Assembly (NCBI RefSeq): GCF_019972315.1
Contig: NZ_BLIZ01000001.1
Coordinates: 1,314,513-1,378,512, forward strand
Direction: 5' to 3'
Origin: Geobacter sp. AOG1
GTDB taxonomy: Bacteria; Desulfobacterota; Desulfuromonadia; Geobacterales; Geobacteraceae
Length of the DNA stretch: 64,000 bases
The stretch's first letter is position 1, and each line of letters opens with the position of its first letter. Made by a program: the position numbers and the translations under genes. Positions 25,081-59,857 of this stretch are shown piece after piece. The notes beneath the pieces are model-generated. The model was not told where the DNA came from. It was given only the letters and a program-made list of their open reading frames with translations, and ran no database searches.

Positions 25081-25101
25081 GGCGGGCGGAAGGAGTGCGG
25101 T

Positions 25102-31690: not shown

Positions 31691-31735
31691 TTCATCGGAG
31701 TGATGCAGCAAACAACAACGTACAGGAGGATGACC

Positions 31736-32053
31736 ATGCTAGAGTACAAGGTGGAAGACAGGTCGTATGAGGTGGATGAAGAGGGATTTTTGCAGGAGCC
31801 TGAGCTCTGGACCGAAGAAGTCGCCAAGGATTTTGCCCTGACGGAGAATATTGCCGAGCTGAATGAGGACCACTGGAAGCTCATCAATTTTGTCCGCTGG
31901 TACTTCGTTCAGTATGGTATTGCCCCCATGGTGCGCAAGGTGTGTAAGGAGACCGGTTTCGAGCTCCAGAAAATCTACGAAATGTTCCCGTCCGGCCCGG
32001 CCAAAGGGGTTTGCAAAGTAGCCGGCCTGCCCAAGCCTACCGGCTGCGTGTAG
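31736..32053 (+). CDS. dsrC: DsrC sulfur-carrier protein
   Basis: A 105-residue protein of the DsrC/TusE family. Its C-terminal arm ends GVCKVAGLPKPTGCV: the penultimate cysteine and a second cysteine separated by exactly ten residues, the pair that defines true DsrC able to form the intramolecular disulfide or trisulfide. TusE has only the last one. In sulfur metabolisers DsrC shuttles sulfur or electrons between DsrAB and DsrMKJOP. ATG 31736 is used because CAGGAGG ends 6 bp upstream; the ATG at 31730 touches it. dsrAB is absent from the window. Confidence 0.92.
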   Translation: MLEYKVEDRSYEVDEEGFLQEPELWTEEVAKDFALTENIAELNEDHWKLINFVRWYFVQYGIAPMVRKVCKETGFELQKIYEMFPSGPAKGVCKVAGLPKPTGCV

Positions 32054-33517: not shown

Positions 33518-35129
33518 CGATCGCCACCAGATTGAGCAGAAGCCGCCACGGTCGGACTGGCGGGACCCGGCGGTCGAATTCCGCAAGGGGACCTATTGCC
33601 ACAGCGCGGGTGCCAAGTACGTGGAGGCGCTCGGCCTCCCCAATCCCCGCGACTGGAATCCTGCCGATGCCGACTGGAAACTCCCTCCCGACTGGAAGCA
33701 GATCATTCTGGATGGGATGGCGGAGCGCCTCGAAAAATACCGCTCCTTCAAGCTGTTCATGGATGTCTGCGTCCGCTGCGGGGCCTGTGCCGACAAGTGC
33801 CATTACTACCTGGGTTCCAGCGATCCGAAGAACATGCCGATGGTGCGGGCCGAACTGATCCGCTCCGTGTATCGCCGTTACTTCACCCCGGCGGGACGCG
33901 TCTTCGGCTCCCTGGCCGGTGGCCGCGAGCTGACGGAAGAGGTGATCAAGGAGTGGTTCTACTACTTCTACCAGTGCAGCGAGTGTCGCCGCTGCTCAGT
34001 CTTTTGCCCCTTCGGCATCGATACGGCCGAGATCACCATGATCGGCCGGGAACTGCTGAACCTGATCGGCTGCAACATCAACTGGGTCACCAAGCCGGCG
34101 GCCGATTGCTTCCGGGTCGGGAACCATCTCGGCATCCAGCCCCATGCCTTCAAGGACAGCCTGGAGTTCGCCGCCGACGAACTGGAAGAGGTCACCGGCA
34201 TCAAGGTGGACATACCGATCAACCGGAAGGGGGCCGAAGTCCTGTTCGTCATGCCCTCGGCCGACTATTTCGCCACCCCCCACTACTACACCCTGCTCGG
34301 CTATATGTCGCTCTTCCATGAGATTGGCCTCGACTTCACCTACAGTGCCTACGCCTCGGAAGGTGGCAATTTCGGCCTCTTCAGCTCCCACGAGATGATG
34401 AAGCGCCTGAACGCCAAGATCTACGACGAGGCGCGCCGCCTGGGGGTGAAATGGATACTGGGGGGGGAGTGCGGCCATATGTGGCGGGTGCTCCACCAGT
34501 ATATGGAGACCATGAACGGTCCTGCCGACTTCCTGGAGGCGCCGGTCTCACCGGTCACCGGGACCCGGTTCGACCATGCGCGCTCCACGAGCATGGTGCA
34601 CATCTGCGAATTCACCGCCGACCTCCTTTACCATGACAAGCTCAAGCTTGACCCGAAGCGGAACGACAAATGGGTGGTCACCTACCACGACTCCTGCAAT
34701 CCAGCCCGCGGCATGGGGCTTCTGGAGGAGCCGCGCTACGTCCTGAAACGGGCCTGCAACCAGTTCCACGAGATGCCGGAGAATACGATCCGCGAGCAGA
34801 CCTTCTGCTGCGGGAGCGGTTCGGGGCTCGGCACGGACGAGAACCTGGAGATGCGCCTGCGCGGCGGTTTCCCGCGTGCCAATGCCGTCCGGCATGTCCG
34901 GGAAAAGCAGGGGGTCAACCTGCTCGCCTGCATCTGCGCCATCGACAAGGCCACCATGCCAACCCTCATGGATTACTGGGTTCCCGGCGTGGAGGTGGCG
35001 GGGGTCCACGAACTTCTGGGGAACGCGCTGGTCATGACGGGGGAGAAGGAACGGACGACGAACCTGCGCGGCGAGCCCCTGCAGCCCGCCGTTCCCGAAA
35101 CGCCGCCTGAGGAGGTGCCCCATGGGTGA
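33510..35129 (+). CDS. dsrK: DsrK, HdrD-like Fe-S catalytic subunit
   Basis: A 539-residue cytosolic protein. Two 4Fe-4S motifs lie near residues 88-99 (CVRCGACADKCHYY) and 155-165 (CSECRRCSVFCPFG). The C-terminal half has CCG-domain features (TYHDSCNPARGMG and EQTFCCGSGSGLG) that bind the noncubane cluster reducing disulfides in HdrB/D. DsrK is the likely site of DsrC disulfide chemistry. It overlaps dsrM and dsrJ by 8 bp each. Confidence 0.93.
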   Translation: MTDDRHQIEQKPPRSDWRDPAVEFRKGTYCHSAGAKYVEALGLPNPRDWNPADADWKLPPDWKQIILDGMAERLEKYRSFKLFMDVCVRCGACADKCHYYLGSSDPKNMPMVRAELIRSVYRRYFTPAGRVFGSLAGGRELTEEVIKEWFYYFYQCSECRRCSVFCPFGIDTAEITMIGRELLNLIGCNINWVTKPAADCFRVGNHLGIQPHAFKDSLEFAADELEEVTGIKVDIPINRKGAEVLFVMPSADYFATPHYYTLLGYMSLFHEIGLDFTYSAYASEGGNFGLFSSHEMMKRLNAKIYDEARRLGVKWILGGECGHMWRVLHQYMETMNGPADFLEAPVSPVTGTRFDHARSTSMVHICEFTADLLYHDKLKLDPKRNDKWVVTYHDSCNPARGMGLLEEPRYVLKRACNQFHEMPENTIREQTFCCGSGSGLGTDENLEMRLRGGFPRANAVRHVREKQGVNLLACICAIDKATMPTLMDYWVPGVEVAGVHELLGNALVMTGEKERTTNLRGEPLQPAVPETPPEEVPHG

Positions 35130-35547
35130 CCGGCCATTGATCTATGCCGGACTCTTCCTGTTCGTGGCGCTGGTCACCCTCCCCGTCTGGCAGGGGATAG
35201 CGGCACAGAGTTCCACCGTCGGGCCGGAGCTGAAGGCGCCTGCCCATAAGAAACAGTGCGTGGCTCCGCGCGCCTACATGCGCGAGGCGCACATGGAACT
35301 GCTCATGGCGTGGCGGGACGGCAAGGTGCGCAAGCATGAACGGCACTACACTGCCGCTGACGGCACGGTGTACAACGTCAGCCTGACCGGTACCTGTCTG
35401 ACCCAGTGCCATGGCAGCAAGGAGAAGTTCTGCGATCGCTGCCATGAGTACGCAGGGGTCTCTGCACCGAATTGCTGGGGCTGTCACACATCACCGCCGG
35501 CAGAGCCGGGCGGGGTGGCCGCCGTAGCCGCAGGGGGGATGCGATGA
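35122..35547 (+). CDS. dsrJ: DsrJ, periplasmic triheme cytochrome c
   Basis: A 141-residue protein with one N-terminal helix (LIYAGLFLFVALVTLPVW) and three CxxCH heme sites: CLTQCH, CDRCH and CWGCH. This is the DsrJ pattern, including three hemes of probably different ligation. It faces the periplasm with DsrO. Starts within the dsrK end and overlaps dsrO by 4 bp. Confidence 0.92.
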   Translation: MGDRPLIYAGLFLFVALVTLPVWQGIAAQSSTVGPELKAPAHKKQCVAPRAYMREAHMELLMAWRDGKVRKHERHYTAADGTVYNVSLTGTCLTQCHGSKEKFCDRCHEYAGVSAPNCWGCHTSPPAEPGGVAAVAAGGMR

Positions 35548-36308
35548 AGCTCACGAGGAAGGATTTCCTGCGCGTTCTGGCCGGCTCCGCGGTAGCGGTC
35601 GGCGCCGGCACACTGGTGCATGCCGTCGGCTCCGCCAACGACAAGGAGTCGGCCGGGTCGACGGTCGGGAAAAAACGCTGGGGGATGGCGGTCGACCTGC
35701 GGAAGTGCCGCGAGGAAAAGGGGTGCGACCTGTGCAGCCGCGCCTGTCATCGGACACACAACGTCCCGCAGATTCCCGACCGGGCCCATGAGGTGAAGTG
35801 GCTCTGGAACGAGCGTCACGACAAGGTGTTCCCCTTCCAGCAGAACGACTACACGCGCCAGGCGCTGGGCGAAACCGTGCCGATTCTCTGCAACCACTGC
35901 ACCAATCCAGCCTGCGTCCGCGTCTGTCCCACCCAGGCCACCTGGAAACGGACGGACGGAGTCGTGATGATGGACTACCACCGCTGCATCGGATGCCGCT
36001 ACTGCATGGCGGCCTGTCCCTACGGCTCGCGCAGTTTCAATTATGTCGATCCCCGGCCCTACCTCGGCACGCCCAATCCCGACTTTCCCACCCGCACGAC
36101 CGGCGTGGTGGAGAAATGCAACTTCTGCGAGGAACGGCTGGCCGACGGCAAGCAGCCGGCGTGCGTGGAGGCGTGTCCGCGCAATGCCATGGTCTTCGGC
36201 GATCTGAACGACGGTAACTCACCCATCCGGCAGCTGCTGAGCGGTCGCTACGCCGTGCAGCGCCAGCCGGAACTTGGGTGCGGGCCGTCCATCTTCTACC
36301 TGGTCTGA
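35544..36308 (+). CDS. dsrO: DsrO, periplasmic ferredoxin-like subunit
   Basis: A 254-residue protein with a Tat-like leader (TRKDFLRVLAGSAVAVGAG); the second arginine of the twin pair is replaced by Lys. Four 4Fe-4S groups can be seen (CDLCSRACHRTHN, CNHCTNPACVRVCPTQA, CIGCRYCMAACPYG, CNFCEERLADGKQPACVEACP). It passes electrons between DsrJ and the membrane subunit DsrP. ATGA overlap with dsrJ. Confidence 0.92.
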   Translation: MKLTRKDFLRVLAGSAVAVGAGTLVHAVGSANDKESAGSTVGKKRWGMAVDLRKCREEKGCDLCSRACHRTHNVPQIPDRAHEVKWLWNERHDKVFPFQQNDYTRQALGETVPILCNHCTNPACVRVCPTQATWKRTDGVVMMDYHRCIGCRYCMAACPYGSRSFNYVDPRPYLGTPNPDFPTRTTGVVEKCNFCEERLADGKQPACVEACPRNAMVFGDLNDGNSPIRQLLSGRYAVQRQPELGCGPSIFYLV

Positions 36309-36315
36309 GGCGGTT

Positions 36316-37473
36316 ATGATCATGCTCGACAAGGCATTTACGGGAAGCGGCAGGTACTGGGGGTGGATTGCCTTTCTCCTGGTCCTGATTGCCGTCGGCT
36401 TCGCCTGCTACCTCCGGCAGCTCGAGTACGGCCTGGGGATAACCGGCCTCTCCCGCGACGTGAGCTGGGGGATCTATATCGCCCAGTTCACCTTCTTCGT
36501 CGGGGTCGCCGCATCGGCGGTCATGGTGGTCCTCCCCTACTACCTCCACAATGTGCAGCAGTTCGCCAGGATCACCATCCTGGGGGAACTGCTGGCGGTC
36601 GCGGCCGTCACCATGTGCATGCTGTTCATCTTCGTGGACATGGGGCAGCCGGCGCGCGTTCTCAACGTGCTCCTCTATCCGACCCCCCATTCCATGATGT
36701 TCTGGGACATGGTCTCCCTCTCCGGCTACCTGGTGCTCAACTTGGTCATCGCCTACGTCATGCTGGCCGCCGAGCAGAAGGGGGTCCCGGCCCCCCACTG
36801 GATCAAACCGGTGATCATCCTTTCCATCCCCTGGGCGGTCAGCATCCACACCGTCACGGCATTCCTCTACAACGGACTCCCCGGCCGCCCGCTCTGGTTC
36901 ACGGCAATCCTCGCCCCCCGTTTCCTGGCATCGGCGTTTGCCTCGGGCCCCGCGCTCCTCATCCTGCTCTGCCTGGCGCTGCGGCGGCTCACGACCTTCG
37001 ATGCGGGACATGAGGCGATCCGCAGGCTGGGGGTGATCGTCGCCTATGCCATGACGGTGAATGTCTTCTTCCTTTTCCTGGAACTGTTCACGGCGCTCTA
37101 CAGCGGCATGCCCGACCATGCCGAGCCGTTCGCGTACCTCTTCTTCGGGATTGACGGCAAGAACGGGCTGGTGCCGGTCATGTGGCTGTCGGTGGTGCTT
37201 GCGCTGGCCGCGCTTCTGGCGCTCCTGGTTCCCCGCTTCCGCCGGAACGAACGGGTACTGGCGCTGGCTTCCCTGGCGGTCTTCGTTTCCCTCTGGCTGG
37301 AAAAGGGGATGGGGCTCATCGTCGCCGGCTTCGTGCCGTCGCCGCTCCGGACGGTGACCTCTTATGCACCGACTGCGCCGGAGTGGGGGATCGTGGGTGG
37401 GGTATGGGCCGTGGGGGCGCTGATGCTGACCCTGTTCTACAAGATCACGGTGTCGGTCCGCGAGGCCGACTGA
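36316..37473 (+). CDS. dsrP: DsrP, NrfD-family membrane subunit
   Basis: A 385-residue protein with ten hydrophobic helices of the NrfD/PsrC family (GLSRDVSWGIYIAQFTFFVGVAASAVMVVLPYY near the N-terminus is the conserved quinone-site helix pair, given here in part for orientation as SRDVSWGIYIAQF). It completes the DsrMKJOP complex as a quinone-reactive anchor for DsrO. The ATG at 36316 follows TGAGGCGG; ATG 36322 is a close alternative. Confidence 0.9.
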   Translation: MIMLDKAFTGSGRYWGWIAFLLVLIAVGFACYLRQLEYGLGITGLSRDVSWGIYIAQFTFFVGVAASAVMVVLPYYLHNVQQFARITILGELLAVAAVTMCMLFIFVDMGQPARVLNVLLYPTPHSMMFWDMVSLSGYLVLNLVIAYVMLAAEQKGVPAPHWIKPVIILSIPWAVSIHTVTAFLYNGLPGRPLWFTAILAPRFLASAFASGPALLILLCLALRRLTTFDAGHEAIRRLGVIVAYAMTVNVFFLFLELFTALYSGMPDHAEPFAYLFFGIDGKNGLVPVMWLSVVLALAALLALLVPRFRRNERVLALASLAVFVSLWLEKGMGLIVAGFVPSPLRTVTSYAPTAPEWGIVGGVWAVGALMLTLFYKITVSVREAD

Positions 37474-37514: not shown

Positions 37515-38714
37515 ATGGAACATTCAAAAGACCTCATCTATTTCGATAATGCCGCCACGTCGTGGCCGAAGCCGGAGCATGTCTACAGCTTCATGATGGA
37601 GTTCTACCGGGCGACCGGTGTCAACCCGGGGCGAAGCGGGTTCGACCTCGCCATCGAGGCGGGCTCCCTCCTCGATCGCCTGCGTCTGCGGCTGACCCGG
37701 TTCTTCGGCGGCGACGAGGATACGCCCGAGCGTCTCTGCTTCGGCTACAACGCCACCGATGCCCTGAATCTCATCATCGGCGGCGTACTTGAGCGGGGCG
37801 ATCACGTCATCACCACCAACCTGGAACACAACTCCGTGATCCGCCCCATCAACCACCTGGTCCGGGACGGCGGTGTGGAGGCGACCTTCATCCCCTTCGA
37901 CGGGGCGGGGTTCGTCGATCCCGACGACATCGCGAAAGCGATCCGTCCGGCGACGAAGCTCGTCATCGTCAATCACGGTTCCAACGTCATCGGCACCATC
38001 CAGCCGGTGAAGGAGATCGGCCGCATCTGCCGCGAACGGGGGGTGACGTTTGTCATCGACACGACCCAGACCGCGGGTATCGTCCCGATCGACATGAAAG
38101 AGATGAACGTGGATGCGCTGGCGTTCACCGGCCATAAGGCGCTCATGGGAACTACCGGCATCGGCGGCCTCTGCATCAGGAAGCACCTCCTCTTGCGGCA
38201 GACCCGGGCCGGCGGAACGGGGGTGGAATCCATTTATCCCTATCACCTGGAAGAGTACCCCTGGCGGATGGAGTTCGGCACCCCCAACATGCTCGGGGTG
38301 GCATCCCTCTGGGCGGGACAGGATTGGCTCGACGAGCAGGGGGTGGAAAACATCCACGCCCGGGAGATGGTGCTTGCGAAGAAACTTGTGGAAGGCCTGC
38401 GTCGGATCGAGGGGGTGCGTTTCTACTGCTGCGACAGCCTGGAGAACCACCTGTCGACCTTCATGATCAACATCGACGGGCTGGACGCGGGGGATGTGGG
38501 GATGATGCTCGATGTGGACCACAACATCGCGACGCGCACCGGCCTCCACTGCGCCCCCCTCGTCCACACCCAGCTTGGGACGGTCGACATCCACGGTGGT
38601 GTCCGCTTCTCCGTAGGTGCGTTCAATACCGACGAGCAGGTGGATGTGGCCATCGGCGCGGTCACGGCAATCGCCCGCTGGAGTGCCGAGCGAAGAAGGC
38701 GGGGCACGGCGTAG
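37515..38714 (+). CDS. Class V aminotransferase, probable cysteine desulfurase
   Basis: A 399-residue PLP enzyme. IYFDNAATSWPKPEHV at the N-terminus, the PLP lysine in LAFTGHKALMGTTG and the active-site loop TRTGLHCAPLVHTQLGT with its cysteine match the SufS/CsdA-like branch. It would release sulfur from cysteine as a persulfide. GGAGGT lies 6 bp before the ATG. It follows dsrP by 41 bp and may load sulfur onto DsrC, which would give a sulfite-independent way to feed the Dsr proteins; this is inference. Confidence 0.88.
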   Translation: MEHSKDLIYFDNAATSWPKPEHVYSFMMEFYRATGVNPGRSGFDLAIEAGSLLDRLRLRLTRFFGGDEDTPERLCFGYNATDALNLIIGGVLERGDHVITTNLEHNSVIRPINHLVRDGGVEATFIPFDGAGFVDPDDIAKAIRPATKLVIVNHGSNVIGTIQPVKEIGRICRERGVTFVIDTTQTAGIVPIDMKEMNVDALAFTGHKALMGTTGIGGLCIRKHLLLRQTRAGGTGVESIYPYHLEEYPWRMEFGTPNMLGVASLWAGQDWLDEQGVENIHAREMVLAKKLVEGLRRIEGVRFYCCDSLENHLSTFMINIDGLDAGDVGMMLDVDHNIATRTGLHCAPLVHTQLGTVDIHGGVRFSVGAFNTDEQVDVAIGAVTAIARWSAERRRRGTA

Positions 38715-38901: not shown

Positions 38902-38923
38902 AAGATATGGAATGGTCATACAT

Positions 38924-39682
38924 ATGGCGATTCAATCCGTTAAAAGAGCAACCGACATCATCTCCCTCTTTTCCTCGTCCCAGCCGGCGCTCGGGATCAC
39001 CCAGATCGCTGCGGCCCTGGGGCTGAACAAGGCGACCGCCTGGGGCCTCGTGACCACCCTGGAAAAGCAGGGGTTTCTGCAGCAGGATCCCGAGACGCTC
39101 AAGTACGGCATCGGTTCGAAGCTCTTCGAACTGGGGATGGTGTACTTCAGCAACCTGGAGATCAATGCCAAGTCGTCGCGCCTGGCGCAGGGGCTTGCCA
39201 ATCGCACCGGCGTCGTTACCCGCGTCGGGGTATGGGACAGCGGTTCCATCCTCATAACGCTGGTGGCGCTCCCCAAGTCGGAAGACAACCTCTCGCACCA
39301 GCTGGGTCCCCGGGTCCCCGCCTACTGTTCTGGCATAGGAAAGGCGGTGCTCCCCTTCCTGGATCCGGAAGAGGTAGATAGCTATCTGCGCGACCTCGAT
39401 TTTGTCCGGCACGCCCGAGCGACCATCCTGAATCCCGAAGAACTCCGTCATGACATGGAGCAGACCAGGGAACGGGGGTATGCGATTTCGAGTGAAGAGA
39501 TGATACCCGGTCTTGCCGCCCTCGGGGCACCGGTATTCGGCAGGTCGCGGCGGGTGGTCGGCGGTATCAGCCTTTCCGATACCCCGGCAAACCTGCTGGG
39601 AAAGAACAAGGATACGCTGGCGGATGACCTGCTGCATACGGCGGCCGAGATATCCCGGAAGATGGGGTACTACACGACATGA
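38924..39682 (+). CDS. IclR-family transcriptional regulator
   Basis: A 252-residue regulator. The winged helix (IISLFSSSQPALGITQIAAALGLNKATAWGLVTTLEKQGFL) is followed by the IclR effector domain, which in relatives binds aromatic or other small acids. The start is taken at MAIQSVKRATDI by family pattern; an in-frame ATG at 38912 is possible. It lies between the dsr operon and the transhydroxylase genes and is the best local candidate to sense the aromatic substrate. Confidence 0.9.
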   Translation: MAIQSVKRATDIISLFSSSQPALGITQIAAALGLNKATAWGLVTTLEKQGFLQQDPETLKYGIGSKLFELGMVYFSNLEINAKSSRLAQGLANRTGVVTRVGVWDSGSILITLVALPKSEDNLSHQLGPRVPAYCSGIGKAVLPFLDPEEVDSYLRDLDFVRHARATILNPEELRHDMEQTRERGYAISSEEMIPGLAALGAPVFGRSRRVVGGISLSDTPANLLGKNKDTLADDLLHTAAEISRKMGYYTT

Positions 39683-39764
39683 TTTTCGGCTGGAATTCCC
39701 CCATGGTTGAGATACGCGGGGGCGTGCGGAGCGTTGTTCGGGATTATGAGTGTTGTCGCATGTA

Positions 39765-39798
39765 TTGCATGTAATATTTTATGCAATATTGCAGCTGC
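39765..39798. promoter_or_regulatory. Class A operator before athLS (copy A4)
   Basis: Half-sites TTGCATGTAA (39765-39774) and TTTTATGCAA (39777-39786) form the class A dyad; a weaker third unit starting TTGCA follows at 39789, again 12 bp on. A further GCATGTA lies upstream at 39758. TAATAT (39772-39777) could be a -10, but no good -35 is visible, so an activator may help here. Confidence 0.68.
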
Positions 39799-39841
39799 TG
39801 GGTATTTGTTACACACAACGACGGAAGGAGGTCCACAACGC

Positions 39842-42454
39842 ATGTCAGATACAAAAGGCGACAAGACAGTATTCAGATCCCTCGGGCTTGGCGGTTTTTA
39901 CGGCGGTGGCGCGGAGGGGATGGTCGATGTCAAGGACGGAAAGATTCTGCGGGTCAGGCCGTTCCGCTTCGACTACAAGTATGACCGGGAGTCGATCCGG
40001 ACCTGGAAGTTCGAAAAGAACGGCAAGACGCTGGAACCGACCTGGAAGTCGATGCCGTCCCCCTTCTCCCTGGCCTACAAGAAGCGGGTGTATTCACCCA
40101 ACCGGATCAAGTATCCGCTCATACGGGTCGACTGGGACCCCAATGGCGAAAGAAACCCCCAGAACCGCGGCAAGAGCAAGTACCGGCGGATTTCGTGGGA
40201 TGATGTGACCACGATCATTGCCAACGAGATTACCCGCATCCATGGGAAGTACGGCGTCAATGCCATTCTCATGCAGGGGGACGGTCACGGCGAGTGCAAG
40301 ACCATCAATACGCCCCATGGCCAGCCCGGCATCCTGCTCGACCACATGGGTGGTTTTACCCTCCAGGTGCGCAATGCCGACAGCTGGGAAGGGTGGTACT
40401 GGGGAGCGAAGCATGTGTGGGGGCAAGGTGTCCAAGGCATGTACTGGCCGGCCCACAACATAGTCAAGGACTCCACCGAACACTCGGAAATGGTGCTGTT
40501 CTGGGGGTGCGATCCGGAGACGACCCCGTGGGGATTTACCGGCCAGTTTACCAGCAGCCTGATGTATTACTGGAAAGATATCGGCATCAAGCAGGTTTAC
40601 ATCTGTCCCGATCTGAACTACGGCGCCGCGATCCATGCCGACAAGTGGATTCCGGTCCTGCCTAATACCGATGCGGCCCTGCAGTTGGCGATTGCCTATA
40701 TCTGGATCACCGAAGGCCTCTACGACAAGGAATACGTGGAAACACATGTCGTCGGCTTCGATAAGTTTTCCGACTACGTACTCGGTAAAGTTGACGGCGT
40801 TGTTCATACTCCCGAATGGGCGTCGGGCAAGTGCGGCGTGCCTGAATGGACCATCAAGGCACTGGCCAGGGAATTCGCCCGCAAGGTGACCTCCATCGCC
40901 CACTACTTCGGTGGCGGGTACATCCGCGGTCCGTGGTCCCACGAGCCGGCACGATTGGAAATCTGTCTGTTGGGGATGCAGGGCTTGGGCAAGCCGGGTG
41001 TTCACCAGCACCAGCTCTCTTACTTCGGCATGCCCCGCATGGAAGGTCTTACCGGCACCTCCTTCTGGAACCCGGAGATCATGGAAAGGCTGGCACTGCC
41101 CGTGCTGTCGTCGGTTGCCAACTGGCAGGAATCGGCGCTGCCGAAGACCCTTGTCCATAAAGCCCTGGCGAACAAGTCGACGGAGCCGCTGAAGTTCATG
41201 GGTACCGGCGCCATCGAAGGGTCCGTCGCCTCCCAGTTCAAGGAACACAGTTTCCCCCTTGTAACGGAGCCGGAAACGAGAATACGGATGATGTGGACGG
41301 ACACCCCCTGCAGGACTACCTGCTGGAACGGCGGCAACGAGACCGAGGAAGCGCTGCGCAGCCCCGAGGTCGAATGCATCCTGGCCCAGCACCCCTGGCT
41401 GGAGAACGACTGCCTGTTTGCCGATATCATTTTGCCGGCCAACACCCACATGGAAGTTGAGGACATCGTTACGAACATACGGCAGGGAGGGCAGTTTGCC
41501 GACGTCATGCTCTGCCACAAGGCAGTGGAGCCGGTAGGGGAGTCAAAGAGCGACTTTGAAATCGTGCTCGAGGTCGCCAAAAAACTCGGCTACGGAGAGC
41601 AGGTTTCCGAGGGGGCAACCACCGAAGAGATCCAGAAGAAGGTGTTCGAGTACATGAACCTGGACAAACTGACCACCTGGGAGGAGTTCAGCGAGAAGGG
41701 ATATTATCTCTACTCCGCTGCCAAGGACTGGGAGAGCGATCCCGCCGGATTCAGCCGGTTTGCGGAGAATCCGGAAAAAAGTCCGCTCGGAACCCCCTCG
41801 CGGAAGCTTGAGTTCTACTCGGAGCGGCTGGCCAAGCACTTCCCCGATGACAAGGAACGGCCCCCCAGCCCGCAGTGGATCGAAAAAAGCGACATGCATG
41901 ACGAGAGATTGTCGAGCGTCAGGACGAAGGACTATCCGCTGCTCCTCATGTCCAACCATGGCAGGTGGCGGGTACATTCGCAGTGCGACGACATTACCTG
42001 GACCAGGGAGGCACCGACCTGCAAGATCACCGGGTTCGATGGCTACAAGTACGAGCCGCTCTGGCTGCATACGTCGGAAGCCGCGAAACGTGGCATCAAG
42101 CACGGCGACGTCATCAAGGTATTCAACGAGCGCGGCATCGTTCTGGTCGGCGCATACGTGACGGAGCGGCTGATGCCGGGCGTCGCCTACATCGACCACG
42201 GGGCCCGCATCGACCCGATCATACCGGGGAAAGTAGACCGGGGCGGCGCGATCAACACCATTTCTCCCGACGGCATCACCTCCGAGAACTGCGTTGGTCA
42301 GGCTACCAGCGGATACCTGGTGCAGGTCGGCAAGGTTTTGCCCGAAGAGTGGGCAGAGTGGAGAAGCGAAAACCCGGCGGCCTTCGAGAGAACGTATGAT
42401 TCCGCCGCGGGACTCCGTTTTGACGCGTGGGTCATTAACGACAGGGAGGTGTAG
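39842..42454 (+). CDS. athL: Pyrogallol-phloroglucinol transhydroxylase, large subunit
   Basis: An 870-residue DMSO-reductase-family molybdoenzyme, close to the about 875 residues of the Pelobacter acidigallici enzyme. It lacks the N-terminal Fe-S cysteines, as that enzyme does. NADSWEGWYWGA near residue 180 matches the known Asp-Ser-Trp active-site triplet (Ser ligating molybdenum), and QGDGHGEC supplies the active-site His near 149. The enzyme moves a hydroxyl between pyrogallol and 1,2,3,5-tetrahydroxybenzene to give phloroglucinol, without net redox change. AAGGAGG lies before the ATG. The small subunit follows 3 bp later. A related hydroxylase activity cannot be excluded. Confidence 0.9.
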   Translation: MSDTKGDKTVFRSLGLGGFYGGGAEGMVDVKDGKILRVRPFRFDYKYDRESIRTWKFEKNGKTLEPTWKSMPSPFSLAYKKRVYSPNRIKYPLIRVDWDPNGERNPQNRGKSKYRRISWDDVTTIIANEITRIHGKYGVNAILMQGDGHGECKTINTPHGQPGILLDHMGGFTLQVRNADSWEGWYWGAKHVWGQGVQGMYWPAHNIVKDSTEHSEMVLFWGCDPETTPWGFTGQFTSSLMYYWKDIGIKQVYICPDLNYGAAIHADKWIPVLPNTDAALQLAIAYIWITEGLYDKEYVETHVVGFDKFSDYVLGKVDGVVHTPEWASGKCGVPEWTIKALAREFARKVTSIAHYFGGGYIRGPWSHEPARLEICLLGMQGLGKPGVHQHQLSYFGMPRMEGLTGTSFWNPEIMERLALPVLSSVANWQESALPKTLVHKALANKSTEPLKFMGTGAIEGSVASQFKEHSFPLVTEPETRIRMMWTDTPCRTTCWNGGNETEEALRSPEVECILAQHPWLENDCLFADIILPANTHMEVEDIVTNIRQGGQFADVMLCHKAVEPVGESKSDFEIVLEVAKKLGYGEQVSEGATTEEIQKKVFEYMNLDKLTTWEEFSEKGYYLYSAAKDWESDPAGFSRFAENPEKSPLGTPSRKLEFYSERLAKHFPDDKERPPSPQWIEKSDMHDERLSSVRTKDYPLLLMSNHGRWRVHSQCDDITWTREAPTCKITGFDGYKYEPLWLHTSEAAKRGIKHGDVIKVFNERGIVLVGAYVTERLMPGVAYIDHGARIDPIIPGKVDRGGAINTISPDGITSENCVGQATSGYLVQVGKVLPEEWAEWRSENPAAFERTYDSAAGLRFDAWVINDREV

Positions 42455-42457
42455 AAC

Positions 42458-43273
42458 ATGAAAGCTTTTATCGTTGATCTTTCAATATGCAACGGATGTT
42501 ACTGCTGCCAGATTGGCTGCAAGGATGAGCACGTGGCAAACGACTGGACCCCTTACGCCAAGCCGCAGCCCGATACCGGCCAGTTCTGGATCAAGGTTCA
42601 GGAGACGATCAGAGGCAGCGTGCCAAAGGTCAAGATGGCCTATACCCCGAATATGTGCTTGCACTGCGACGATGCCAAATGCATGGCCCAGTGCAAATCG
42701 GGGGCGATCTACCGGCGCCCGGACGGCCTGATTGTCATAGATCCGCAGAAATGTACCGGCTGCAAGCTGTGCCCGGATACCTGCCCGAACGGCATGATCT
42801 ATTTCAACGAGGACCTCAATATCTCCCAGAAGTGTACCGGTTGCGCCCATCTGATCGACGATAACTGGGATGTTCCCCGTTGCGTTGATTCCTGCCCGAC
42901 CGGAGCCCTGAAATTCGGCGAAGAGTCCGATTTCGCGGAGCAGATCGCCAAAGCCGAGCCGCTCAAGGCCAATAGCTGCAAAGGACGGGTTTACTATCTG
43001 AACGCACCCAAGGATTTTGTCGCCGGAACCATCTATGACCCGGTCGAGAAAGAGGTCGTGATTGGCGCGGTCTGCACTCTGAAGGACAAGGCCGGCGATC
43101 AGACCCTTACGGTGGAAACCGACAACTTCGGTGACTTCTGGTTCAATGACCTGCCCGGTGAAAAACGGGAGTACTCGTTGACCATCGAGAAAAGCGGCAA
43201 AACGCAAGTGATCGATACGATCGACGCGACAAACGCGGTAAATCTGGGTGACATACCGATGAAACTGGTGTAG
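42458..43273 (+). CDS. athS: Transhydroxylase small subunit, 3x[4Fe-4S] plus beta domain
   Basis: A 271-residue electron-transfer subunit. Cysteine groups CNGCYCCQIGC, CLHCDDAKCMAQC, CTGCKLCPDTC and CTGC...CVDSC fit three [4Fe-4S] clusters. The last 85 residues (VIGAVCTLKDKAGDQTLTVETDNFGDFWF...) form a beta-sandwich of carboxypeptidase-regulatory or transthyretin type. Exactly this extra domain and a length of about 274 residues characterise the P. acidigallici transhydroxylase beta subunit, which supports the athL call. A strong terminator follows. Confidence 0.92.
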   Translation: MKAFIVDLSICNGCYCCQIGCKDEHVANDWTPYAKPQPDTGQFWIKVQETIRGSVPKVKMAYTPNMCLHCDDAKCMAQCKSGAIYRRPDGLIVIDPQKCTGCKLCPDTCPNGMIYFNEDLNISQKCTGCAHLIDDNWDVPRCVDSCPTGALKFGEESDFAEQIAKAEPLKANSCKGRVYYLNAPKDFVAGTIYDPVEKEVVIGAVCTLKDKAGDQTLTVETDNFGDFWFNDLPGEKREYSLTIEKSGKTQVIDTIDATNAVNLGDIPMKLV

Positions 43274-43402: not shown

Positions 43403-45037
43403 ATGAGCAGCCACGACGTCATTATCATACATCCGCCGGCGGTCTACGATTTTCGCAAGAAGCCCCTCTTCCCCGGTGCCCTGGGCGCCTCGGTGGAACA
43501 GGTGCAGTTCAACAAGGTCCCCATCGGCATGCTCAGCATGGCCGAGTACCTGGACCGGCACGGCTACCGGGCGAAGGTGGACAATCTGGGGGACCGGATG
43601 GTTGCCAGCCCCACCTTCGATGCCGATGAGCATCTCAGAAACCTGTCGGCCCCGATCATCGCCATCGGTCTCCATTTCCAGCAACATGCCCAGGGGGCGC
43701 TGGAGGTGGCGCGGCTCTGCAAGAAGTTTCACCCCGGCTCCGTCGTCGTCATGGGGGGGCTGACCGCCACCCGTTTCCACGAAGAAATCATCCGCAAGTA
43801 CGACTTCGTCGATGCCGTCATCCGGGCCGAGGGGGAGAAAGCACTGCTGCAGTTCGTGCGGGCCTATGAGCAGCACGGCCGGATCACCGACACCCCCAAC
43901 CTGACCTACCGGACCGGGGAGGGGGAGGTGCGGGTAACCCCCCTCATGCCGGCCAGCACCGACCTGGACGACTTCGAGTTCACCCGCTTCGACCTCCTGG
44001 AGCCGGGGACCTCGGTCTATCCCCCCAATGCACCCCCCCGCTGGAGTCTGACGGTCTGCCGCGGCTGCATCTACAACTGCGCCATCTGCGGCGGCTCGGC
44101 TTACACCTACAAGACCCACCTGGGGATGGGGAAGCCCGCCTTCCGGAGCCCGGCGAAGATCATCACCGACATCAAGAAGCTCAACGACCAGGGGGTCCAC
44201 TTCATCGGCCTCTACCAGGACCCCCGCATGGGGGGGAGGAAGTACTGGCGGGAGCTCCTGTCCGGCCTTGCCAAGGAAAAAGTGGAGATCGAGCGGCTCT
44301 CCCTGGACCTGCTCGTCCCGGCGGACGAGGAATTCATCCGGGAGGCGTCCAAGATCGGCCGGCAGGTGGTGATGCATCTCTGCCCGGACACCGGCTCGGA
44401 CGAGGTGCGCCGGAGGCTGGGGCGTCCCTACTCCAACGAAGAACTGCTCCGGACCGTCGAGCTCTGCCACAAGTACCGCCTGCCGGTCACCACCTTCTTC
44501 TCCGTGGGGTTGGCGGGAGAAACCGCCGATGACGTGAAGAAGACCTGGGAGATATGGGAGAAGCTCACCGCCATCGACCGCTCTTCCCAGGCGGCCGGCA
44601 TGGTCGACGTCCCGCTGGGTGGCCCCATTGTCGGCCCCATCGTCCTCGATCCCGGCTCCCCGGCGTTCGACGATCCGGAGAAGCACGGCTACAAGCTCCT
44701 CTACAAAAATCTCGAAGAGTACGTCGGCGGCCTCTCCCAGCCCTCCTGGCACCAGTGGCTTAACTACGAGACCGAGCTCATGGACAATGCCACGCTGGTG
44801 GATCTCATTCTCGACACCGTGCGGTTCTCCACCGAGCAGCGGGAGAAGTCCGGCCTCTATGATTACAAGCAGGCCCTTGCCGAGCGGATACGGACCGTCC
44901 TGGACCGGGAGGTGGTTGCGGAGATAAACCGGATCATGACGATGGGGGAGGGGGCGGAGCGGGAAGCCGCCGTGGCGGCGCTGAAGCTCAAGCACGAGCA
45001 CTTTCTCAATCGGCCGGTGGAGTCGTTTCTTCAATAG
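43403..45037 (+). CDS. B12-binding-domain radical SAM protein
   Basis: A 544-residue protein. The N-terminal 150 residues look like a cobalamin-binding Rossmann domain (HPPAVYDFR, VVVMGGLTATRFHEEI), and the radical SAM motif is CRGCIYNCAIC (CxxxCxxC-like) near residue 220. C-terminal residues form a helical extension. B12-radical SAM enzymes methylate unreactive carbons or rearrange skeletons; the substrate here is unknown. It lies between two terminators as its own unit. No class A or B operator was seen in front of it. Confidence 0.82.
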   Translation: MSSHDVIIIHPPAVYDFRKKPLFPGALGASVEQVQFNKVPIGMLSMAEYLDRHGYRAKVDNLGDRMVASPTFDADEHLRNLSAPIIAIGLHFQQHAQGALEVARLCKKFHPGSVVVMGGLTATRFHEEIIRKYDFVDAVIRAEGEKALLQFVRAYEQHGRITDTPNLTYRTGEGEVRVTPLMPASTDLDDFEFTRFDLLEPGTSVYPPNAPPRWSLTVCRGCIYNCAICGGSAYTYKTHLGMGKPAFRSPAKIITDIKKLNDQGVHFIGLYQDPRMGGRKYWRELLSGLAKEKVEIERLSLDLLVPADEEFIREASKIGRQVVMHLCPDTGSDEVRRRLGRPYSNEELLRTVELCHKYRLPVTTFFSVGLAGETADDVKKTWEIWEKLTAIDRSSQAAGMVDVPLGGPIVGPIVLDPGSPAFDDPEKHGYKLLYKNLEEYVGGLSQPSWHQWLNYETELMDNATLVDLILDTVRFSTEQREKSGLYDYKQALAERIRTVLDREVVAEINRIMTMGEGAEREAAVAALKLKHEHFLNRPVESFLQ

Positions 45038-45199: not shown

Positions 45200-45973
45200 C
45201 TAGGGATCTGGAAATTTCTTTGCCAATTCAACAAGTACCGGCAACGTTGATTTAAAAGTTCCGACATCTTTTATTGAGAAATGTAGCATGTACAGGCTGC
45301 CTGATGCATTCAACATAACCTCAGTAACATGGCTGGGTTTTCTGTGGCTGGAAACGAACACCCGAAACATGTATCCACCACCTGCAAACTCGACGACAGA
45401 GTGCCCGTCTATTTTGTTTCGAAAAGGCAAATAAATCAGGTTTTTCGTAGTGTCAGCATCAATAAACTTAACTACTTGTACTGGGTAGGTAGAGTCATCC
45501 TTGCATTGTGGGTTTCGGTAAAGTTCTCTCATCCTTTTGAAATGCTTGTCCACAAGAAGATAATTTCCTTCTTTCTGTTCCGCCAAGTGACTCCGCAACA
45601 CGCAGGCATAGACAAACTTCTGCAATTTACAAAAATCAACGTTCTGCCAGTGGCTATAATGCTGATCACCTGTACTTGTATGGCCGGAGCGTTGTGCAAC
45701 CACAATTGAAGCAACCTCAGGAGCCTGAGCATTCTTATTTCCGAGGATTAAGCTGCCATACCGGTCATAAACCTGAGATTCAATTTCACAGGTTTCGCAG
45801 ATGATAGTTTCGTAATATCCCTTCTGTTTTTTGTTTACGTGACGCCTGTCAACTTTGACGTTAATCAGCTTGTGGCGGCTGTCATACACCTCGCTGTACA
45901 TCCACTCAGGAAGCAGATGGCTCCTACGGTGGAGTGTTGTTGTATCTTTTTCGCAGAGAGGGCACTTTTTCAT
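45200..45973 (-). CDS. HNH-like zinc-binding protein, unknown function
   Basis: A 257-residue protein. CPLCEKDTTTLHRRSHLLPEWM and, about 55 residues on, IICETCEIE give two CxxC pairs flanking a His-rich segment, a layout seen in HNH-type or zinc-finger proteins found in defence loci. The remainder (FVYACVLRSHLAEQ, FAGGGYMFRVFVSSHRKPSH) is not recognised. It is A+T-richer than the flanking catabolic genes, and lies next to the STAND gene, so a defence role is plausible but unproven. Confidence 0.5.
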   Translation of the reverse strand: MKKCPLCEKDTTTLHRRSHLLPEWMYSEVYDSRHKLINVKVDRRHVNKKQKGYYETIICETCEIESQVYDRYGSLILGNKNAQAPEVASIVVAQRSGHTSTGDQHYSHWQNVDFCKLQKFVYACVLRSHLAEQKEGNYLLVDKHFKRMRELYRNPQCKDDSTYPVQVVKFIDADTTKNLIYLPFRNKIDGHSVVEFAGGGYMFRVFVSSHRKPSHVTEVMLNASGSLYMLHFSIKDVGTFKSTLPVLVELAKKFPDP

Positions 45974-46036
45974 TTTCGGTCCAACTCGTAATTGGAAGAT
46001 CTCTCTTCTCTAATATCCTATATTTTGGGAGGTTAC

Positions 46037-46256
46037 TTAATATGTTCCTGGCCCGGGAGGTTCTGGAATATCGAGTGTAACCGTAGAATCATAGAAAGTG
46101 ACTCCTTGTGTACGCAGGTGATTGAAGAAGGGGTCAGCAAGTGCTGGGTCATTGCGCCTAGATGGGGTGAGCCATCCCTGTCCAATAGCTTCGTATAACA
46201 ACAGCCAGTGTTGCTCATTAAGACTTGAATTATTAACGATGTTTTTCCAGTTTGAA
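46037..46256 (-). pseudogene. Start-less ORF remnant
   Basis: Reading leftward, an open stretch encodes NEQHWLLLYEAIGQGWLTPS and ends with PPGPGTY and a TAA at 46039-46037. Upstream the frame meets a TAA within the inverted repeat and has no start codon. It looks like the 3' end of a gene whose front was lost when the repeats arrived. The family is not recognised. Confidence 0.4.
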
Positions 46257-46437
46257 AAATAGGGACACTTCCCAATTTAATGGTCAAATATGGGAAGTGT
46301 CCCTATTTATCCCTAAGGGGGACAGAAAATAAATCTGTCCCCCTTTTTGTTCTTTTTTTTGTGCTTTTTGTTTCAATAACTAAAGGATCGAAGCCGAAAA
46401 ATAGGGAAGTGTCCCTATTTATTCCTATTTATTCCTG
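46257..46437. repeat. Cluster of nested inverted repeats (REP-like)
   Basis: Two perfect dyads stand side by side. First, AAATAGGGACACTTCCCA (46257-46274) pairs with TGGGAAGTGTCCCTATTT (46291-46308) over 18 bp. Second, AAGGGGGACAGA (46315-46326) pairs with TCTGTCCCCCTT (46334-46345), followed by T-rich DNA. A third, partial copy (AGGGAAGTGTCCCTATTT) starts near 46403. GGGACA-type repeats of this kind resemble REP/REPIN elements mobilised by RAYT transposases. No transposase is in the window. Confidence 0.7.
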
Positions 46438-46528
46438 CATTATTACACTATTTATTCATTTATTCCATTTATGTACGCCCCACTGACTTCTCCTGAACTA
46501 CAGAACGTCGCATAAGCCTTTCCTTAGC

Positions 46529-49417
46529 TCAACCACGCAGGAAAGCGAGGAATTTCCGCATGGTTGAATCTGTATAGTTGTCGGTTAATAGCCTCCTCAC
46601 GCTAGGCCTGAACCCATCGGCAATTTCATAAAAGTTATCGATCTCCTTTTCGCGCTTTAATGTAACGTAACCAGCGCTAACAATTCGATCAAACTTTTTG
46701 TCGGCAAGTCCCGGCACCTTCGTTGAGAATTTAATATGAGCCTTCTTGTTGTCTGTAAAGCGATCTCCTTTGAAAAAACTGTGTAAGAACTTTCTTGCTT
46801 CTGCCTCAACCATACGATTTTCAGCCTGTTTTCCAGCACGCGCGAGTGTCAGAAATTCACGCAGGTCTCCTAGTTCGCAAGTTTGATCGAGCGACTGAGG
46901 ATCAAGAGAGGACGTCTGTATTGACTGATCGAAACAAAGATCGAACGAACAGTACATGAATCGCGTATTCTGAAATTTGCAGGCAAGTAACTTTTTATAT
47001 CCAGTAAAGCGAGAATTGGTAACCGTCAGATTAGAGAAATCCATCGTTGGAAATTCGCCTCGCAAGTGAAGGCCAGATATTGTTACCGATGAACCAATCA
47101 TTGGATTCATGCCGTAAAGCCTGAGGACAGTTTCGGTTATGTGCTGAGCGGAGCCTCCGACAACTTGAGCCGCTAAGTTGAGGAGTGACGCAATTGCACG
47201 ACGAGTCAGTTCTACATCAGTCTGACGAGCGGGGTCTTGCTGTTCCGCGTTTTTTCGAAGGCGTGATATTAGAGTTGCTGCCGACTGAATGAGTTCGTCT
47301 CTGCGCGTTGAAAAGTATCGTTTGAGTTCACGGAACTCGTTGGCTTCTATGCTAAGACGGGCAAGAGATCTTATGAATTCCCGCTCAAGGCTATGGCGAT
47401 ATAATCCATCAAGCAGGTGTACGACCTCGAAGTATGACGCCAGAAAGCTGTAGCGCAACTCAATGCTGTCTTCGGTTTGAACAAGAAGTGGGTTCAGTCC
47501 AATCTTTGCATTAAGCACAGGCCCTCTGTTATCGTAAAGGAGTGTGAGCCTTTCGAGCATCTCTGAAATTGGCCAGCGTTTTGAAAAGTCCGCCACCAGA
47601 CCCGAGAGAAGCTGAACAACATCACCGACAGACAAATCTAGGCCATGTCGAACTTCTTCCCGACGCATCACTGAGTGAATGATGTGGTCAGTAAGATCAT
47701 TGTTGGAGGGGTAGGGAGTGGGGTCCTCACTGATTTCTAGTTCTTCCGACCTGTTATCTTTCAGCCCGTCTTCAACGACCGTAGCTGCAATATCAGCGAA
47801 GAAAGGAACAACCCTTCCGTCTTGATCGTGCAGTTGGACCTTGTCGATCTGTGACAGAACCTTTGCGACAATAACTTTACCGTCGGAGTACTTTTTGAAA
47901 CGACGATTCAGGTATGCTTCACAGGTCGACCTGTCGAAGCCGAGCAAATCGTATCTTTCAATCGAAAGCTCCTCAAGTCTAGCCTGTTCAACAAGCTGGC
48001 TGTTTCGTGTTGTCAGGAGGACAGCGCTACTCCCCAGTTCGCCATGGAATTGAGCGAGTGAGGCGAGGAAGACATCTAGATTAAAAGTGTCTGGGAATAG
48101 CGATACAAACTCGTCTAGACCATCAATGATGACAACTAGGTTGCCACTAAGAAATGCTAGTTCAAACGTGTTGCGATCGAATACTTGGTCGAAATGATGG
48201 TGCCGTGCATAAAGTTCGTATAACTGAAAGACCGAATCAATTCGAGCACCCAGCACACCGTTCTCCGCAACGTATCTCTTGATAGACTCTGCCTGGACCA
48301 GAATTACTGATGAGTGCAGGTCTTGCCTATTGTGAAGAGTTGCGGCAACAGCAAGACAAAGTGATGTCTTGCCCATCCCGCCTGAAGCAATAACTAGATG
48401 AGCGCTCGTAGACGATGGTTGTTGCAGTTGGTTAACGAGCAAATCCCTTGCAGAAGGTGCAACAACCAGATCACGTTGGTCATTCTCATAGTTGAGACTT
48501 TGATCAGTGTAGTTGGCAATCTCAGAAGGGGGATCAGAGCCCTTCAAACTTTCATCGATGCAGAACTTCCATATATAGTCCTTATATGTGAGCTCATGAA
48601 TTTGTGTACGAATGCCAGCCTGACTGAATAACCCTGGGATTAACGCCTGTTCAACGCGTCCAGATCGAGGCCGAAGTACCGTAAGGTCGGTAGGCCGAAT
48701 TCCAGATATTTTGAATTGTTCAATTGCGTGGTTCACTGTTTGAGTAATATTGATGTTACTGGCGAGCGCAAGATAATAGGCGAGGGCTGGCGATTTCGTT
48801 TCCCATAGCTCATACTTGATACGATTCGAGCCTGAAAAATTTGTCCCCTGCTCTTTGTTAACGATAGGCCGTCGATTCGTGTGACCAATTCTTATGAGAT
48901 CTTCTACTTTGGTGAACGTGTAAATGTGCTCATCTGATGTAAGACTACGGCGTTTTTGTGGACGTGAAACTGTTGACTCATTTCTTAAGTATTGCAGAAG
49001 GATGGCCTCGGACTCATTGTATCTTTCGTCGACTGTAAAATCGATGTGTAGGTGGCCCTTCAAGTAATTGGGAACGGAGTCGGGTTCTCGCAGAGCAACA
49101 ATTACCTTAGTTTTGTCCTGCTTCTGGAGCCCATCCCAATGAACGGCTGAAGCAAGATATGTCTCAATGCCTACACCGCCTAAACGATTGTCGGCTTTTT
49201 CTTTATACTTCTTTGTCGCGGTAACAATAATGTAGTCTGATTCGTAGATGCCCGCTTCCATAAATTTATTTTTGTCTGTGAGAGCATCTAAGTCGTATCC
49301 ATCCCAAACGACGTGTAGCTCTTTAAATTCTTCCAGCGCGTCGGCTAGCTTCCGAACCCATTCTTTGTGAGTCTCTGAGTCCCAACTGTAAGAGAGGAAT
49401 ATCTTTGTTTTGTTCAT
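46529..49417 (-). CDS. SEFIR-NACHT STAND protein with pentapeptide-like C-terminus
   Basis: A 962-residue protein with NLR-like layout. Residues 1-150 form a SEFIR/TIR-like domain (FLSYSWDSETHKEWVRKLADAL). A NACHT-type NTPase follows, with Walker A ASGGMGKTSLCLAVAA near residue 348 and Walker B LVVIIDGLDEF near 428. After a long helical region, residues near 785-835 carry pentapeptide-like repeats (GLHLRGEFPTMDFSNLTVTN). Bacterial STAND NTPases with effector domains of this kind act in abortive phage defence by sensing a phage component. SEFIR as the effector suggests nucleotide (NAD-type) signalling or hydrolysis, by analogy with TIR. Confidence 0.8.
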   Translation of the reverse strand: MNKTKIFLSYSWDSETHKEWVRKLADALEEFKELHVVWDGYDLDALTDKNKFMEAGIYESDYIIVTATKKYKEKADNRLGGVGIETYLASAVHWDGLQKQDKTKVIVALREPDSVPNYLKGHLHIDFTVDERYNESEAILLQYLRNESTVSRPQKRRSLTSDEHIYTFTKVEDLIRIGHTNRRPIVNKEQGTNFSGSNRIKYELWETKSPALAYYLALASNINITQTVNHAIEQFKISGIRPTDLTVLRPRSGRVEQALIPGLFSQAGIRTQIHELTYKDYIWKFCIDESLKGSDPPSEIANYTDQSLNYENDQRDLVVAPSARDLLVNQLQQPSSTSAHLVIASGGMGKTSLCLAVAATLHNRQDLHSSVILVQAESIKRYVAENGVLGARIDSVFQLYELYARHHHFDQVFDRNTFELAFLSGNLVVIIDGLDEFVSLFPDTFNLDVFLASLAQFHGELGSSAVLLTTRNSQLVEQARLEELSIERYDLLGFDRSTCEAYLNRRFKKYSDGKVIVAKVLSQIDKVQLHDQDGRVVPFFADIAATVVEDGLKDNRSEELEISEDPTPYPSNNDLTDHIIHSVMRREEVRHGLDLSVGDVVQLLSGLVADFSKRWPISEMLERLTLLYDNRGPVLNAKIGLNPLLVQTEDSIELRYSFLASYFEVVHLLDGLYRHSLEREFIRSLARLSIEANEFRELKRYFSTRRDELIQSAATLISRLRKNAEQQDPARQTDVELTRRAIASLLNLAAQVVGGSAQHITETVLRLYGMNPMIGSSVTISGLHLRGEFPTMDFSNLTVTNSRFTGYKKLLACKFQNTRFMYCSFDLCFDQSIQTSSLDPQSLDQTCELGDLREFLTLARAGKQAENRMVEAEARKFLHSFFKGDRFTDNKKAHIKFSTKVPGLADKKFDRIVSAGYVTLKREKEIDNFYEIADGFRPSVRRLLTDNYTDSTMRKFLAFLRG

Positions 49418-49525
49418 AATAATTCCTTATTTATTTCATTGTGACCAACGGGGCTGCGCTTGACCTGCCGGGCGCCTCGTACCCGGTCATGGTCTGATCG
49501 CTGGTTATGGTGTTTTCGTCGTATA

Positions 49526-50194
49526 TTAATATCCGTACGCACTCAAGGTCTTCAATAATTCATCAAAAAATTTGCCGTAATTATCCAGAGCACGATAAAC
49601 GAGAGGTGCCTTTAATTTCATTGTTCCTGTTGTCTTGTTGTTAATGGTTGTCTCAGATAACTCAGTTTCACCTCTGTATGACGCTTTACAATAATCATAA
49701 ACAACTTTGTGGTTTTTGTTGTCCAGGTCTAGAAATCCACCGGTATGGACTATAACGTTTCTTATTTTGCAGAAGTTTGAAATATGTTTCCACTCATCTG
49801 TAGCAAATGGCGTTGATATTTCATAAACTTTACTCAAATAAATCTTGCATTGTTCTATTCCGCTACCAGCAATATCCTTTAAAGTTATCTTATTCTTCGT
49901 ATATACTTGAAGATGCTTACAAATATCACTTAGCTTTACTTCAAATAAGTTATAAGCTGTGCAGTATATTGAATTCCAATGAATGTCAGAGAATTCTTCC
50001 CCAATTTGGTACATCATGCTTCCATAATATTCCCCCATAGAGTACTTTACACCGTCATCTACATTTTTTAATTTTAATTCGTATTCTTCATTTAGCCTCT
50101 TAACTTCTTGGTCGATCAAAGATTCTATAAAATTGCAGAAATCTTTCAACATATGAAATTCATGCACGACAAAAAAACCAATCATATTTTTCAC
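49526..50194 (-). CDS. HEPN-domain protein, putative RNase
   Basis: A 222-residue helical protein, notably A+T-rich. The segment CKIRNVIVHTGG contains the RxxxxH motif (R-N-V-I-V-H) that forms the catalytic pair of HEPN RNases. It starts with GTG at 50194, preceded by AGAGG at good distance; ATG 50185 is the alternative. Its place directly upstream of the STAND gene, in the same direction, suggests a two-gene defence module. It could also be an independent toxin. Confidence 0.62.
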   Translation of the reverse strand: MKNMIGFFVVHEFHMLKDFCNFIESLIDQEVKRLNEEYELKLKNVDDGVKYSMGEYYGSMMYQIGEEFSDIHWNSIYCTAYNLFEVKLSDICKHLQVYTKNKITLKDIAGSGIEQCKIYLSKVYEISTPFATDEWKHISNFCKIRNVIVHTGGFLDLDNKNHKVVYDYCKASYRGETELSETTINNKTTGTMKLKAPLVYRALDNYGKFFDELLKTLSAYGY

Positions 50195-51473: not shown

Positions 51474-51510
51474 TTGACAAATGCAACATTACATGTAATA
51501 TTGCATGAAA
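51474..51510 (+). promoter_or_regulatory. Amidohydrolase promoter with class A operator (copy A5)
   Basis: TTGACA (51474-51479), 16 bp, TAATAT (51496-51501). The class A dyad, half-sites TTACATGTAA (51489-51498) and TTGCATGAAA (51501-51510), lies across the -10. An ATGCAA fragment (51481-51486) forms a weak extra unit 12 bp upstream. It differs from the cimA copy at 2 of 22 positions. Confidence 0.75.
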
Positions 51511-52564: not shown

Positions 52565-52636
52565 CATGGTGGTGGGGCGGGGTTGTCCTACGGGCAACCC
52601 CGCCCCACCGCGGTCCACTTCAAAGGATTGGTGACT

Positions 52637-59836: not shown

Positions 59837-59857
59837 ATCCCGATGCGGAGGACCCCT

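Follow-up and report, generated by a model that had tools for sequence, protein, structure and literature searches.

Does the gene pair athL1-athS1 of Geobacter sp. AOG1 encode a second example of the molybdenum-dependent pyrogallol-phloroglucinol transhydroxylase of Pelobacter acidigallici, as an earlier note on this DNA had proposed, or a different enzyme? The pair was analyzed in a window of 64,000 nucleotides (G000:C1:1314513-1378512, G000 being the label of the window's genome, a single contig of 3.68 Mb); positions below are those of the window unless a genome or locus is named. We found that the AthL1 pair is a separate branch of the pyrogallol-transhydroxylase family and not the counterpart of the P. 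acidigallici enzyme. The genes compared are the following.

39826-39831, plus strand: AGGAGG ribosome-binding site of athL1, read directly
39842-42454, plus strand: athL1, molybdopterin large subunit of the Ser-ligated type, AthL1 core clade; 870 amino acids, start ATG
42458-43273, plus strand: athS1, small subunit with 16 cluster cysteines (four 4Fe-4S motifs) and a C-terminal seven-stranded beta domain; 271 amino acids
43297-43323, plus strand: perfect 11-bp inverted repeat with a 5-nt loop, 3′ of athS1, possible terminator
61990-64000, plus strand: athL2, P. acidigallici-type, cut by the window end; 862 amino acids in full (L017:2503-5091)
L017:5063-5929: athS2, after athL2, beyond the window end

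Family membership of the AthL1-AthS1 pair

As judged from both subunits, AthL1-AthS1 belongs to the RhL/PgtL (AthL) family, a group of Ser-ligated MopB enzymes. The best PDB matches of AthL1 and AthS1 were the two P. acidigallici AthLS/PgtLS subunits (PDB 4v4c; E 1.3e-121 and 8.4e-48, respectively), and the claimed agreement in length was confirmed (870 versus 875 residues in 4v4c_A, 271 versus 274 for the small subunit). AthL1 scored above the Pfam cut-offs for both PF21423 (AthL domain) and PF00384. The extra beta domain of the small subunit, also claimed before, was detected as PF13620 at residues 188-262 and as seven strands at 186-267 in the predicted AthS1 model (predicted local distance difference test score 91). 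Structural comparison returned 4v4c_A as the top match of the AthL1 model (Z 36.6, root-mean-square deviation (rmsd) 2.3 over 790 residues) and 4v4c_B as that of the AthS1 model (Z 27.0, rmsd 2.6 over 260 residues).

The active-site Asp-Ser-Trp named in the earlier note is present at 180-182 of AthL1 and aligns with Asp174-Ser175-Trp176 of P. acidigallici. The same motif was found in 103 of 103 aligned family members and is thus not diagnostic of substrate. His149 is also kept; its counterpart, His144 in P. acidigallici numbering, occurs in all aligned members.

Family, length, molybdenum-ligand Ser, His149, Asp180 and beta domain are therefore held in common, and the P. acidigallici enzyme comes first among the PDB matches of both the sequences and the models. 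These points favor the original reading, in which AthLS1 would be a second, isofunctional pyrogallol-phloroglucinol transhydroxylase whose fourth iron-sulfur cluster is vestigial. We consider this quite unlikely, as a much closer homologue of the P. acidigallici enzyme is encoded 20 kb away and the differences described in the next two sections stand against it.

Phylogeny and pocket residues of the large subunit

A phylogeny of AthL had been suggested as a check. A FastTree tree was built from 109 sequences, with plasmid homologues included and a Burkholderia plasmid homologue left out. P. acidigallici AthL, AthL2 and 16 others formed a clade of 18 members (clade II, the P. acidigallici type; support 0.999). 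AthL1 fell outside it, in an AthL1 core clade of 50 (support 1.0) with members from Desulfobacterota, Chloroflexi, Actinobacteria and others. AthL1 is only 34% identical to P. acidigallici AthL, compared with 48-50% for AthL2. From its closer identity and its place in clade II, AthL2 and not AthL1 is the classical enzyme of this genome. Of the earlier description, family membership and the unusual setting hold, and the assignment to the P. acidigallici type passes from AthL1 to AthL2; the second pair, the cysteine difference between the small subunits and the missing dsrA had not been noticed there.

The alignment separates the two clades at five pocket-region positions as well. In P. acidigallici these are Tyr152, Arg153, Trp354, Tyr404 and Tyr560, and the AthL1 core clade lacks counterparts of four or all five; in AthL1 itself Thr157 and Pro158 lie opposite 152/153, with gaps or other residues at 354, 404 and 560. 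Three of the five (Tyr152, Tyr404 and Tyr560) are invariant among the aligned clade II sequences, while position 153 may be Arg, Lys or Trp and position 354 is variable. The AthL1 core clade has invariant residues of its own, for example Lys153, Tyr355, Cys490 and Cys494.

Iron-sulfur clusters of the small subunit

Ferredoxin subunits with four 4Fe-4S clusters carry 16 cluster cysteines. AthS1 has 16 out of 16, making up all four sets. The fourth set consists of Cys79, 99, 102 and 105, which align with four cysteines of the four-cluster subunit PsrB (2vpw_B); counterparts are missing from both P. acidigallici AthS and AthS2. This set was present in 43 of 43 scored AthS partners of the AthL1 core clade and in 0 of 15 scored partners of clade II. 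A division of the family into four-cluster and three-cluster branches appears to be a new and testable point, a narrow literature search having given no description of it.

The AthL1 pair thus differs from the P. acidigallici type in tree grouping, in pocket residues and in the cluster number of the small subunit, and on these three features it should not be filed as a transhydroxylase of that type.

The fourth set presumably forms a distal cluster passing electrons to or from a partner, as in DmsB and NarH. A redox-neutral transhydroxylase has no need of such a cluster, and a hydroxylase or dehydroxylase does; AthLS1 is for this reason likely to be redox-active.

Proposed reaction of AthLS1

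The explanation that we favor, at about even chances, is that AthL1-AthS1 is an electron-exchanging hydroxylase acting on a phenolic ring, placed beside AthL2-AthS2 in one operator-controlled catabolic region. AthLS1 would be a cytoplasmic molybdenum enzyme hydroxylating a di- or trihydroxybenzene with oxygen from water, most likely with removal of two electrons, which would leave through the four 4Fe-4S clusters to an outside acceptor. AthL2-AthS2 would act alongside it as a three-cluster, redox-neutral transhydroxylase of the P. acidigallici type, in a common region with further genes for a flavin reductase, a thiolase, a B12 mutase, beta-oxidation and activation by coenzyme A (CoA). Clade placement, the loss of pocket residues, the cluster split, the shared operator and synteny are observations; the phenolic nature of the substrate, the direction of electron flow and the acceptor are what we infer in this scheme.

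A special case of this explanation is that AthLS1 is the ortholog of resorcinol hydroxylase (RhLS) or of 3,5-dihydroxybenzoate hydroxylase (DbhLS). RhLS of Azoarcus anaerobius is described as a cytoplasmic enzyme of one family with PgtL, with a Ser ligand and an electron-donating hydroxylation (PMC10100899), and four clusters would suit an acceptor-dependent hydroxylase. No betaproteobacterial locus was among the 80 best matches, however, and we regard direct orthology as unlikely. Neither RhL nor DbhL turned up on plasmids or in the 80 loci. Cupriavidus and Salipiger plasmids do carry homologues, about 31-33% identical to AthL1, which were rejected as RhL candidates since the tree placed them in clade II.

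The reverse reaction must also be weighed. AthLS1 could be a reductive dehydroxylase, with electrons entering through the four clusters and a hydroxyl being removed from a polyphenol, as in the catechol dehydroxylases of gut Actinobacteria. A complete chain of four clusters can work in either direction, the next best structural matches of the AthL1 model after 4v4c_A were Ser-ligated reductases (dimethyl sulfoxide/trimethylamine N-oxide reductases), and the adjoining DsrMKJOP is by family definition a quinone-linked electron-transfer module. Against this, both named characterized members of the family, RhL and PgtL, add hydroxyls (PMC10100899). The gut enzymes resemble AthLS1 as bis-molybdopterin guanine dinucleotide molybdenum enzymes acting on hydroxylated rings, but they are reported in a clade of their own, close to acetylene hydratase and apart from Pht (PMC7028382). 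Direct reading of the AthL1 N-terminus also gave no visible signal of the twin-arginine type. Dehydroxylation thus seems improbable to us.

Several points weigh against the hydroxylase proposal itself. That the five positions discussed above line the substrate pocket of the transhydroxylase is our assumption, after the structure published in 2004. Among the deeper AthL1-like branches both states occur, with four clusters in 10 and three in 11, and four clusters may be an ancestral state that was merely retained. Which way the electrons flow cannot be read from the sequence, and no substrate is known for any AthL1-core member in the collections searched. Neither a BKACE (triacetate lyase family) gene nor a ring-cleavage route following AthL2 was identified in the genome. 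Finally, for the related Geomobilimonas luticola (Geobacteraceae) the record includes use of acetate, lactate, pyruvate and succinate, with Fe(III); sulfate, phenol and benzoate are given as not used, and trihydroxybenzenes have no entry (PMC8516083).

A common operator

Two copies of a palindrome connect athL1 with the AthL2 cluster.

39769-39794, no strand: operator-like palindrome upstream of athL1, five mismatches to the best site
51481-51506, no strand: ATGCAACATTACATGTAATATTGCAT, the best copy of the operator; it overlaps a promoter-like site (TTGACA-16-TAATAT) that precedes the amidohydrolase
51566-52564, plus strand: amidohydrolase (PF04909), with which the AthL2 cluster begins

The operator under which the earlier note had placed the pair is accordingly present, as an operator-like palindrome (39763-39794 in its longer extent). 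Its half-site gave 14 matches in the window against 0.44 expected. In the whole genome the 19-base form, with up to two mismatches, gave 11 matches and the reversed control none; all 11 lie between genome positions 1,333,466 and 1,400,404, i.e. within about 67 kb. The sites 5′ of athL1 and 5′ of the amidohydrolase both recur in the relatives G002, which is of the same genus, and G110. Further copies are located near an HMGL-like and an MFS gene, near the gene at 25057 and, downstream, near those for enoyl-CoA hydratase and ETF. With a common palindrome before athL1 and before the AthL2 cluster, the two are probably under one regulator, for which the IclR, GntR and MarR proteins are candidates.

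The gene at 25057-26262 encodes 401 amino acids with no Pfam match and has operator-like sites just upstream (24839 and 24996). Its homologue in G110 sits between a radical SAM gene and an amidohydrolase. Identification of this gene as a U32 peptidase was dropped; it came from a motif impression only and had no support from Pfam or PDB.

Genes around the two pairs

The remaining genes next to athL1 and in the AthL2 cluster are listed below.

37515-38714, plus strand: cysteine desulfurase family protein
38912-39682, plus strand: IclR-family regulator
43403-45037, plus strand: B12-binding radical SAM protein, TIGR04190-like below the cut-off
52583-53278, plus strand: GntR/FCD regulator
53293-54639, plus strand: MmgE/PrpD family protein
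54690-56348, plus strand: methylmalonyl-CoA mutase-like large subunit
56195-57148, plus strand: fusion of a methylmalonyl-CoA mutase B12-binding domain with a domain like BbsA, a benzoylsuccinyl-CoA thiolase subunit, 5′ of the BbsB-like thiolase; true start probably later than 56195
57166-58329, plus strand: BbsB-like thiolase
58268-59641, plus strand: family III CoA-transferase; the true start is probably 3′ of 58268
59822-61897, plus strand: BaiCD/OYE-type flavin reductase

Succinyl-CoA ligase and beta-oxidation genes follow downstream of the AthL2 cluster. Genes of the P. acidigallici type and of the AthL1 core clade co-occur within about 10 kb in 8 of the 80 named loci (the best genome matches to the pair), and in three further loci a P. 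acidigallici-type AthL lies beside deeper AthL1-like genes. One locus with both types, L055, also has SDR, BKACE, 3HCDH and thiolase genes, a set resembling the phloroglucinol pathway genes of PMC10470551. Near AthL1-type genes in six loci there are cyclase-family genes, the family of the dihydrophloroglucinol-cleaving enzyme. The neighboring genes support a phenolic substrate without naming which one. A complete known phloroglucinol pathway in the present genome was considered and rejected: BKACE is missing and the single cyclase-family gene is located elsewhere.

The radical SAM gene adjoins AthL1/AthS1 also in L023, L049 and G110 and is near the pair in L045. NrfD-type membrane genes were found near AthL1 in L039, L045, L049 and L057. 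In the first three of these the pair has near it, besides an NrfD gene, another MopB enzyme that carries a Fe4S4 domain of its own; this is a possible quinone-linked partner. The window contains a cytidylate-kinase-like gene (27563-28375), and a Cytidylate_kin2 gene is directly 3′ of AthL1-AthS1 in L030 (5341-6177).

The radical SAM gene and the amidohydrolase cluster are set apart by the stretch at 45200-50194, which resembles an inserted island of the defence type. It holds a TIR/SEFIR-NACHT gene (46529-49417, minus strand) and two flanking low-GC genes, with G+C contents of 0.33-0.46 and values at third codon positions (GC3) of 0.34-0.47, versus about 0.67-0.88 elsewhere. In G110 no match to the TIR/SEFIR-NACHT gene was found at that place, and the radical SAM gene, the 25057 homologue and the amidohydrolase are consecutive.

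The adjoining dsr genes

The iclR and dsr genes had been named before as neighbors of the pair, correctly.

31700-32053, plus strand: dsrC-like gene
32519-37473, plus strand: dsrM, dsrK, dsrJ, dsrO and dsrP, all above NCBIfam cut-offs

DsrC and DsrMKJOP are thus complete. DsrA was not found in the genome, where its best match reached 46 bits with the cut-off at 393; the search did not extend to DsrB. G002 and G110, the latter 88% complete, gave no DsrA either. Dissimilatory sulfate reduction was therefore rejected as an explanation of these genes. DsrK was above cut-off in 3 of 147 relatives (G000, G002 and G110), exactly those with AthL1. The order dsrMK, desulfurase, iclR, athL recurs in L024 and L025, and the genome of L024 does have DsrA. 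Both loci carry two tandem AthL1-type genes before a single AthS in this setting.

A functional link between dsr and AthL1 is possible, and joint inheritance of one island explains the data equally well. As a long shot, DsrMKJOP might have been recruited in a non-sulfate-reducer to serve an AthLS1-type polyphenol hydroxylase as its quinone-linked electron partner, and that hydroxylase would supply the hydroxylated co-substrate (e.g. 1,2,3,5-tetrahydroxybenzene) needed by the redox-neutral AthLS2.

Distribution and horizontal transfer

AthL matches of any kind were found in 4 of the 147 relatives and AthL1 in 3; G001, of the same genus (RpoB 96%), has no AthL1. In the unrelated metagenome-assembled genomes behind L024, L025 and L044, identity to the G000 proteins is 79-81% for AthL1 and only 59% for RpoB. 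This patchy presence and the excess of AthL1 over RpoB identity support the horizontal transfer that had been put forward as one possibility. The codon-use comparison with flanking genes, proposed as another check, did not flag athL1 as foreign: its GC3 (0.78) and codon score (-0.97) are inside the range of the flanking genes in this high-G+C window (59.6%, in line with the earlier description). Recent import judged from codon use was accordingly rejected; either the transfer was not recent or the composition has since adjusted.

The other possibility, extension of a presumed pyrogallol/gallate use to a different lineage, is weak. Geobacterales and P. acidigallici belong to the same class, Desulfuromonadia, and AthLS-like pairs in Chloroflexi are already in print (PMC3971608), so that presence of the family in other lineages is not new. 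There, each of two RBG genomes is reported to have two AthLS-type complexes, annotated as pyrogallol-phloroglucinol transhydroxylase. In our set the RBG-named Chloroflexi loci L041, L043 and L052, which may be of the same or of other genomes, carry AthL1-core pairs of 64-66% identity; no dsr genes were found beside them, in contrast to the window.

Implications

Genes of this kind are annotated as pyrogallol transhydroxylase, and predictions that sediment bacteria ferment pyrogallol are based on them. Should the four-cluster branch be a redox hydroxylase, the reaction given in such predictions is wrong. That four-cluster and three-cluster enzymes are often paired in one locus makes the origin of the tetrahydroxybenzene co-substrate of transhydroxylation a testable question.

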